Shown here piece by piece: positions 2 through 1,922 of a stretch of DNA of 64,000 bases. Location: positions 1-64,000 of IMG/VR virus record IMGVR_UViG_3300036045_000002; one strand, 5' to 3'. The notes under the pieces were generated by a model. That model saw nothing but the letters and a program-made list of their open reading frames with translations, ran no database searches and had not been told where the DNA came from. The stretch's first letter is position 1; each line of letters opens with the position of its first letter. The DNA comes from a virus. The position numbers and the translations under genes were made by a program.

Positions 2-565
2 AACGTGTTCTACCAGGACGGGTACGAGGCGGACGACATCATCGCGTCGGTGTGCGACAACACCCCGGCGAAGGACGAGGTGGTCGTCGTCTCGGGGGAC
101 AAGGACCTGCTCCAACTCCTGTCGGCCCGGGTGTTCGTCTGGCAGCCTACCCACCGGCAGGTCATGACCGTCAAGTCCTTCCAGGACCGGTACTACGGCC
201 TGCACCCCCAACACTGGGCGCGGGTCAAGGCCATCGCCGGGTGTTCGACGGATGACGTTCCAGGCGTCAAGGGCGTCGGCGACGCGACGGCCGCCAAGTT
301 CCTCATGGGCCTCAAGACCAACAAGGCGGACGAGATCGAGGCGTGGCTAGTGAGCAACCAGTATCGCAAAAACCTCGACCTCGTCCGCCTCCCGTACACC
401 GGGACGCCTGACTACCCGCCTGTCCAGGACATGGTGGACACCAGGCGCTGGCGGAAGCTGACCACCAGGCTCGGGATGAAGTCGCTGGCCGACCTGGCCC
501 CGCGGCCGGTCGAAGGGTTCGGCCTCCGAAAGGTCGCGATTAGGAAGGCAACCGATGACGAGTAA
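2..565 (+). CDS. 5'-3' exonuclease / flap endonuclease, 5'-truncated
   Basis: C-terminal 187 residues of a FEN-type 5' nuclease; the N-terminus lies outside the window and the frame is open to base 2. Metal-binding acidic motifs YEADDIIAS and SGDKDLLQLL are visible, followed by the helix-3-turn-helix DNA-binding segment with GVKGVGDATAAKFL. The family removes RNA primers and 5' flaps during phage replication, like T5 exonuclease or T4 RNase H. It overlaps the next gene by 11 nt, so the two are probably translationally coupled. Confidence 0.85.
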   Translation, partial: NVFYQDGYEADDIIASVCDNTPAKDEVVVVSGDKDLLQLLSARVFVWQPTHRQVMTVKSFQDRYYGLHPQHWARVKAIAGCSTDDVPGVKGVGDATAAKFLMGLKTNKADEIEAWLVSNQYRKNLDLVRLPYTGTPDYPPVQDMVDTRRWRKLTTRLGMKSLADLAPRPVEGFGLRKVAIRKATDDE

Positions 566-1922
566 GGACTTAGGGAGATTCGTCGGCCTGGCCGCGTTCG
601 CCAAGAACATGGTGTTCGTCGGCATCGACTCCGGGTCTACCGGGGCCGTCGGATTCCTCTGCGGCCCGCACCACTGCGTCGTGGACATCCCGACCTTCAA
701 GGTGAGCCGCGGGAAGAAGAAGAAGACGGTGTTCGACAACCAGGCCATCGTTGACCTGTTTGACCAACTCGACCGGATCAGTTCCGACCGGGTCATCGCC
801 TGCCTGGAGGAGGCCCAGGTCGGAATCCCCGGCAAGGGGAACTCGGCCTACAACGGCTTCCGGGTCGGGTGCATCGCCGCCGGAACCCCCATCCTGACAA
901 AAAGGGGTTGGGTTAAAATCGAATGTGTGCTACAATCCGATCTACTCTGGGATGGGGTGGAGTGGGTACGCCATGATGGCCCCGTATACCAAGGAGAGAA
1001 AGCGTGCCTTCGAGTGGACGGGATCGACATGACCTCCGACCATCAGGTCCTGACAAGTCGAGGATGGCTGGATGCCAGGACTGTGGCGGGCCTGTTACAA
1101 GATGGAGTTCCGGCCGGTGCCTTGCTTGCAGCCGGAAACGAAACGGAAGGCGAACCGGCCGGGCAAACCGGAAATATGACCTCGGAGGATTGGACAGAAG
1201 ACTATTCCAACGCCTCCAGGAAATCGCTAGGAATGCCATCTACCGGTGTCACAACCCAAGGACGCGGAACTTCTCTGAATACGGAGGACGAGGTATCACG
1301 GTCTGGCTCCCGTGGAGGGAGGATATCGGACGGTTCGTCCGATACATCGCCAAACTTCCAGGCAGCAACAACCGACTTCTCTCGCTCGACCGGATCGAGA
1401 ACGATGAGGGGTACGAACCGGGAAATCTCCGGTTCAGTAACCGGTCTGAACAGCAGAAGAATTCAAGGAGAGCCCGAGTCGTGGTTTACGATGGCCGGCG
1501 AATGTCCTTTGCCGAGTTCGTGGCAAAGTTCTGTCCTCATCTCAAATACGAAACTGCCAGGAAGCGACACGCCGTTCACCATTGGATACTCGACCGAATT
1601 GTCCAAACCCCGTAAGGTCTATGACATCCTAAACTCAGGTCCTCGGTTTCGATTCCAAGCCGGCGACATGATCGTATCCAACTGTAATTGGGCCATGTGG
1701 CCGTTGTTCCTGATGTCCAAAAGGTACGTCCTGCTCGAACCCAGACCGAGCGTCTGGAAGAAGGAGATGAAGCTGGTGGGGACGGGGAAGGACACCAGCC
1801 TCGCGTTGGCCCAGAAACTCTTCCCCAAGGCCGACTTGCGCCTGAAGAAGCACCACGACCGGGCGGAGGCCCTCCTCCTCGCGTCGTGGGCCAGGCGGCA
1901 GTACAAGAAGGAGAACGTCTGA
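555..1922 (+). CDS. RuvC-like Holliday junction resolvase interrupted by an intein
   Basis: 455-residue precursor. Residues 1-105 plus 377-455 join into a 184-residue RuvC-like nuclease, the usual RuvC length. Acidic residues sit in GIDSGSTG (D25), ACLEEAQV (E85/E86) and HHDRAEALLLA (D435, E438). Residues 106-376 are an intein inserted between FRVG and CNWAMW, in the conserved loop after the second catalytic motif. The mature enzyme should cut branched DNA during recombination or before packaging. Start ATG 555 follows an AAGG ribosome site; ATG 609 (MVFVGIDSGS) would give a more typical RuvC N-terminus. The stop overlaps the next ATG (TGATG). Confidence 0.85.
   Translation: MTSKDLGRFVGLAAFAKNMVFVGIDSGSTGAVGFLCGPHHCVVDIPTFKVSRGKKKKTVFDNQAIVDLFDQLDRISSDRVIACLEEAQVGIPGKGNSAYNGFRVGCIAAGTPILTKRGWVKIECVLQSDLLWDGVEWVRHDGPVYQGEKACLRVDGIDMTSDHQVLTSRGWLDARTVAGLLQDGVPAGALLAAGNETEGEPAGQTGNMTSEDWTEDYSNASRKSLGMPSTGVTTQGRGTSLNTEDEVSRSGSRGGRISDGSSDTSPNFQAATTDFSRSTGSRTMRGTNREISGSVTGLNSRRIQGEPESWFTMAGECPLPSSWQSSVLISNTKLPGSDTPFTIGYSTELSKPRKVYDILNSGPRFRFQAGDMIVSNCNWAMWPLFLMSKRYVLLEPRPSVWKKEMKLVGTGKDTSLALAQKLFPKADLRLKKHHDRAEALLLASWARRQYKKENV
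870..1682 (+). other. Intein in the RuvC-like gene
   Basis: 271-residue in-frame intervening protein. Block A begins with Cys106 (CIAAGTPILTKRGW), block B has the T-x-x-H motif MTSDH (T160, H163), and the C-terminal block reads VYDILNSGPRFRF and ends IVSN before the +1 cysteine C377. The penultimate residue is Ser instead of the usual His. Between the blocks the intein frame encodes Ser/Thr/Gly/Arg-rich sequence with no recognisable domain, because that DNA carries an HNH gene in another frame. The DNA is visibly less GC-rich than its flanks, consistent with a mobile element. Confidence 0.85.
1064..1615 (+). CDS. HNH homing endonuclease nested out of frame in the intein
   Basis: 183 residues read in a different frame from the surrounding intein. 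An N-terminal zinc ribbon (CQDCGG at residues 4-9, then CLAC) precedes an HNH-type core with NFSEYGGRGITVWLPW, LSLDRIENDEGYEPGNLRF and SEQQKNSRR, the signature of phage HNH homing endonucleases. ATG 1064 (MAGCQDCGG) fits the zinc ribbon; GTG 1004 is an alternative. The stop TAA at 1613-1615 falls exactly where intein block F starts. Probable role: cutting intein-less alleles to spread the intein. Confidence 0.8.
   Translation: MAGCQDCGGPVTRWSSGRCLACSRKRNGRRTGRANRKYDLGGLDRRLFQRLQEIARNAIYRCHNPRTRNFSEYGGRGITVWLPWREDIGRFVRYIAKLPGSNNRLLSLDRIENDEGYEPGNLRFSNRSEQQKNSRRARVVVYDGRRMSFAEFVAKFCPHLKYETARKRHAVHHWILDRIVQTP

Follow-up and report, generated by a model that had tools for sequence, protein, structure and literature searches.

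Inteins are expected to carry their endonuclease, if any, within the spliced-out polypeptide, and the locus analyzed here raises the question of how splicing and mobility can be maintained when the two functions appear to be encoded in different reading frames of the same DNA. The locus lies in the first 64,000 bases (the window) of the 80,085-base virus record IMGVR_UViG_3300036045_000002 from IMG/VR, where a gene for a RuvC-type Holliday junction resolvase is interrupted by an intein and an HNH endonuclease is read from a second frame over much of the intein sequence. The best explanation of the data as a whole, to which we assign a probability of about 0.85, is that this is a mobile phage intein in which splicing and mobility are assigned to separate, overlapping frames. 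The features of the locus are as follows.

555–869 (+): N-extein of the RuvC-type Holliday junction resolvase (open reading frame 555–1922; match of the spliced extein to phrog_1770)
870–1682 (+): intein of 271 amino acids, Cys1 to Asn271 (characteristic residues, hidden Markov models (HMMs) of the splicing blocks, AlphaFold2 model, Foldseek)
870–1100 (+): N-terminal splicing region, blocks A and B, with TSDH in block B (N-block HMM; AlphaFold2, residues 1–88)
991–996 (+): likely Shine-Dalgarno sequence of the nested gene, AAGGAG (spacing, duplex energy)
1004–1615 (+): open reading frame of the HNH endonuclease, in the −1 (that is, +2) frame relative to the intein; likely start GTG 1004, alternative ATG 1064, stop TAA 1613–1615 (phrog_3377; AlphaFold2)
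1073–1129 (+): zinc ribbon of the HNH protein, CxxC...CxxC (sequence; predicted local distance difference test score (pLDDT) of about 80)
1137–1589 (+): Ser/Thr/Gly-rich, predicted disordered filler in the intein frame, overlapping the HNH gene (pLDDT, composition, near-null conservation in family pairs)
1379–1426 (+): HNH core, LSLDRIENDEGYEPGN (columns conserved in alignments A1 and A7)
1614–1682 (+): C-terminal splicing region, blocks F and G, KVYDILNSGP...MIVSN (C-block HMM; residues 251–270 at pLDDT of about 96)
1683–1922 (+): C-extein of the resolvase, first residue Cys+1 (sequence, alignment with homologues, phrog_1770)

Nucleotides 870–1682 encode a complete intein, in frame with the resolvase. 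The open reading frame 555–1922 is uninterrupted and yields a product of 455 amino acids, within which the intein occupies codons 106–376; both splicing halves thus lie within a single open frame, unlike those of a split intein. Cys1 (nt 870), the TSDH motif, Asn271 and Cys+1 are all present, and the N and C blocks are recognized by their HMMs with E values of 6e-35 and 1e-11, respectively. In the AlphaFold2 model of this frame, residues 1–88 and 241–271 are mostly predicted at pLDDT >90, and a Foldseek search with the model retrieves mini-inteins as the best PDB matches (best E value 4e-4), which identifies the Hint fold. As for the host gene, phrog_1770 (Holliday junction resolvase) matches the unspliced protein in two separate stretches (E value 8e-13), but the 184-amino-acid spliced extein in a single stretch, positions 3–153 of 158 (E value 9e-17), so that removal of the intein improves the match, and the spliced extein aligns across the insertion site with intein-less viral RuvC homologues. 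Removal of the intein thus restores a conserved protein for which intein-less homologues are known. Cys1, TxxH and the terminal Asn are shared by all 188 relatives in which they were checked.

The second frame encodes an HNH endonuclease, with the HNH core accompanied by a DNA-binding zinc ribbon; it matches phrog_3377 ("HNH endonuclease") with an E value of 3e-27 and is modeled by AlphaFold2 as a confident fold (mean pLDDT 85.9). The TAA stop codon of this gene overlaps the first codon of block F. Between the splicing parts, the intein frame encodes a filler of about 150 residues for which AlphaFold2 predicts no secondary structure, with pLDDT mostly <50. Pfam and NCBIfam profiles produced no match for either frame; the intein-block HMMs and phrog_3377 match their respective frames. 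The original prediction had proposed a RuvC-like host gene, a full set of splicing blocks in a frame open for 271 codons, an HNH endonuclease with zinc ribbon and core over 552 nt of a second frame (counted from ATG 1064) with its stop at the start of block F, and a filler that merely stays open. All these points hold, the last one on account of the disordered model and the near-null conservation described below, and the central reading, a complete splicing domain with an endonuclease in another frame and a filler that needs only to be open, is supported. Separately, the intein frame is matched over its N block by phrog_93, a phage family labeled "endonuclease"; the label therefore may rest on intein-bearing members.

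Is this arrangement a peculiarity of one record? A tblastn search with both window proteins yielded the first relatives, DNA polymerase inteins of EBPR siphovirus 2, Vibrio phage 97.13, Sodalis phage SO-1, APSE-1, Caulobacter phage GB2A, Shewanella phage SFCi1 and Streptococcus phage Javan255; in each of these seven, the intein frame is open and the HNH is encoded in a different frame. IMG/VR was then scanned three times, and the bacterial genomes of GTDB once, using alignments of the intein N block only, so that the search was not biased towards any position of the nuclease; the loci were classified with profiles for the N block, the C block and HNH, and those found earlier were pooled in; the GTDB scan contributed only seven relatives. 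The survey covers the best-scoring loci of each scan and one intein family rather than inteins at large. Among 238 intact inteins, 220 contain an HNH, in the +1 frame in 156 and in the +2 frame in 64, and never in the intein frame; the remaining 18 are mini-inteins without HNH. The host genes are PolA (several sites), two helicase families, the terminase large subunit and, in the window, RuvC. Out-of-frame HNH is the only layout found in the surveyed phage intein family, and the suggestion that the arrangement is not common does not survive: it is the sole arrangement found for HNH (220/220 HNH-bearing intact inteins) and is annotated in APSE-1 and SO-1. Other searches were less productive: scanning viral contigs with the window HNH as a single sequence retrieved no relative, and a DNA-level search of phage records produced no match.

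Both frames are under selection, in different ways. We shuffled synonymous codons of the HNH genes of 79 representatives (43–66% GC) and found no stop codons in the intein frame against 402.7 expected, whereas the unused third frame contains 969 against 950.5 expected. Given that an open intein frame was required for entry into this set, the count of exceptions matters: in about seven family loci an HNH is present while the intein frame is not open; four or five of these look like natural split inteins, and L154/L314 and L264 appear broken. A chance origin, whereby a GC-rich genome happens to leave the second frame open, might be entertained for the window alone, where, for this HNH protein, the intein frame would be open with a probability of 0.048, a marginal value, and the GC content of the overlap is 0.56; it is, however, refuted by the family data, and among HNH genes outside inteins of this family, an open reading frame in another frame spans only 3 of 68. 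In nearly all of 33 independent pairs, amino acid identity is higher in the HNH than in the intein frame, and divergence of the filler is close to the null set by the HNH (mean z 0.78; 0.14 for the third frame). The filler thus changes almost exactly as the HNH dictates, indicating that it needs little beyond openness. This conservation also bears on the possibility that only the mini-intein is alive and the HNH frame is a decaying relic, for which the 18 mini-inteins and the HNH remnants in L108, L123 and L218 could be invoked: in the relatives it is the HNH that is better conserved, and the window HNH is full length, with zinc ribbon and core intact and a confidently predicted fold, so that we consider decay improbable.

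The remaining alternatives concern how the nested frame is expressed and what kind of element it inhabits. GTG 1004 is preceded by AAGGAG at a spacing of 7 nt (duplex energy −8.5), a combination that occurs 4 times in the window against 0.6 expected, whereas ATG 1064 has a poor site (−3.7). Of the two starts proposed originally, therefore, 1004 gains support and 1064 is the less supported, and GTG 1004 is, judging from these sequence signals, the likeliest start of the window HNH. In the +1 group, an NTG codon is found at +202 from the first base of the intein in 26 of 41 loci (1 of 37 in the +2 group), and just upstream of it, the codons of a conserved Glu-Gly-Trp provide a Shine-Dalgarno-like stretch. 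No stop interrupts the HNH frame between +92 and +202 in 34 of 37 loci of the +2 group, compared with 5 of 41 of the +1 group; in the +2 group, translation therefore likely begins near +92, where the conserved WDGxEW codons lie. The start codon at +92 was itself considered as evidence and discarded, being a by-product of conserved Glu-Trp codons in both groups; it is uninformative, and the argument for the +2 group rests on frame openness. Across loci, the best Shine-Dalgarno energy, a best-of-several figure, is ≤ −7 in 76%, as against 8.7% of control NTGs. Programmed ribosomal frameshifting, which would produce a fusion of N-extein, N-intein and HNH instead of a separately initiated protein, draws some plausibility from the open stretch that precedes the HNH domain in the +2 loci, where a shifted ribosome would meet no immediate stop. 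It would, however, require opposite shifts (−1 and +1) in the two groups, canonical −1 slippery heptamers are nearly absent (1/41 and 2/37 loci, none in the window), and the fixed +202 start of the +1 group points to initiation; frameshifting is unlikely, if anything slightly less probable than decay. Finally, the SO-1 record annotates a homologue as a "type I self-splicing intron", but there is no Rfam group I match in the window, L001 or L003–L005, and the full set of splicing blocks is encoded in the interrupted frame, which stays open, so that a group I intron with an open reading frame can be considered virtually excluded.

Several observations weigh against the two-frame intein or limit its generality. 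The penultimate residue in the window is Ser (VSN, 1671–1682) instead of the usual His, a substitution found in 15 of 188 relatives tested; splicing could be slow as a result, and that of the window intein may be slow or regulated. A PDB fold search with the HNH model gave no clear match. The HNH frame of the window opens at +107, without the +92 opening of most +2 relatives, and its start accordingly differs from theirs. Independent captures of the HNH appear to be few, so that the complete lack of in-frame cases may reflect a small number of founding events and not a rule. With these reservations, we lean towards a broader conclusion, held with distinctly less assurance than the interpretation of the window itself: in this family the HNH would always be a separate gene in another frame and never an intein domain, conserved intein codons would supply part of the ribosome-binding and start signals, and the linker would be selected only for the lack of stop codons, making this a distinct, overlooked mobile-intein architecture and not a single-record oddity.

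For the two-frame intein, we infer the following course of events. The resolvase frame encodes the N-extein, the splicing domain with its predicted disordered linker, and the C-extein, and self-excision of the intein would restore the resolvase. Internal initiation on this mRNA, most likely at GTG 1004 after AAGGAG, would in addition yield an HNH homing endonuclease as a protein of its own, about 203 amino acids long, which would cut intein-less resolvase genes and thereby cause the element to be copied into them. The architecture could have originated when a mini-intein captured a self-contained HNH gene: such a gene keeps its own stop codon, and hence only an out-of-frame insertion would leave the host gene readable. 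That the stop codon, with perhaps two to four captures, explains the absence of in-frame cases is what we infer, not a statistical result.

The phylogenies bear on the number of captures. In the HNH trees, the main +1 clade (Shimodaira-Hasegawa-like approximate likelihood ratio test support 99) lies among HNHs from outside the family inteins, and the window HNH adjoins another such HNH (L015), which suggests repeated capture, in three or four events; in approximately unbiased (AU) tests on the HNH and splicing-domain trees, however, one origin for each frame could not be rejected, so that what can be stated firmly is that two frames are used. The splicing-domain tree placed the window in the +1 clade, and a separate origin for the window intein was therefore considered; this claim was dropped because a tree with the +2 inteins united in one clade was not rejected by the AU test (p 0.84). 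Mini-inteins are scattered over the splicing-domain tree and look like products of repeated HNH loss. Shortened inteins with out-of-frame HNH remnants (L108, L123 and L218; 195, 169 and 168 amino acids) are apparent stages of endonuclease loss and, like the mini-inteins, are in line with the usual cycle in which an endonuclease is gained, drives homing and is lost.

The family includes further variants. L096 (1287), L299 (695), L305 (1718), L319 (1718) and probably L073 (1999) look like natural split inteins with an HNH of the same family, in which the N half stops after 105–122 amino acids and is followed by the HNH at +1 and the C block at +2; L096, L299, L305 and L319 have a second intein with a nested HNH downstream. 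Two family inteins occur in one open reading frame in six loci: in L114, L128 and L169, the HNH is nested at +2 in one intein and at +1 in the other, and in L175, L196 and L252, one of the two is a mini-intein. In L133 and L174 (3001–3946), an Arsenophonus endosymbiont and a viral contig that matches it, a polymerase intein resembling that of APSE-1 has its HNH frame shortened, and the host frame contains a stop. In the window, the resolvase gene is preceded by an exonuclease fragment (phrog_107) and followed by an SbcC-like gene, indicating a replication and repair cluster. The GC content of the window intein (870–1682) is 0.55 compared with 0.62 for the extein, and in 63 of 79 family loci the intein is lower in GC than its flanks.

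The annotation of such loci varies: they are recorded as a polymerase plus an HNH, as an "intron", or with the nuclease missed (EBPR siphovirus 2 and Caulobacter GB2A records). The SO-1 locus (L004, 1594–4782; gp38/gp39), for which the record gives a type I self-splicing intron, contains the splicing blocks of an intein, and Rfam recognizes no intron in it. More generally, the textbook intein contains an in-frame endonuclease domain, and the more than 200 phage examples identified here appear to uncouple splicing and mobility into two proteins, making testable the questions of how endonucleases enter inteins, why such an overlap is maintained, and how translation of a nested gene begins within a replication gene. 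Nested loci also provide many natural examples of sequence entanglement, which is now engineered for containment (PMC12455656).

Compared with known systems, the window intein shares features with several and coincides with none. In canonical inteins, such as PI-SceI or the Synechocystis GyrB intein with its HNH, the endonuclease is a domain of the same polypeptide; the window intein resembles these in combining a Hint splicing domain with an endonuclease at a conserved host motif, but its HNH, in the −1 frame, would be a separate protein. Fractured phage replication genes, reportedly described by Dassa and colleagues in 2009, consist of split inteins with a free-standing endonuclease gene between the halves; they resemble the split-intein loci L096, L299, L305, L319 and probably L073, whereas in the window and its intact HNH-bearing relatives, the intein frame is unbroken. 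The closest counterparts are APSE-1 P45/P46 and Sodalis phage SO-1 gp38/gp39, with the same splicing domain family, an open intein frame and the HNH in another frame, and with both genes of the pair annotated; their host gene is PolA, not RuvC, and the APSE-1 HNH uses the +1 frame, unlike that of the window.

ShiLan, an insertion in a phage methylase that spreads by homing (Arsenault et al. 2025, PMC11855218), likewise hides an HNH: the insertion is open in the host frame and encodes the HNH in an alternative one, with a proposed internal GTG start. It has no intein splicing domain, so that its insert presumably remains part of the methylase, whereas the window intein has a complete Hint domain. 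A 2025 preprint on non-canonical actinobacteriophage inteins, cited in PMC11855218, may describe similar cases. The architecture is thus annotated in single records, and no description of it as a family rule was found in the literature examined; new here are the RuvC host, the apparent family-wide rule and the use of both alternative frames.
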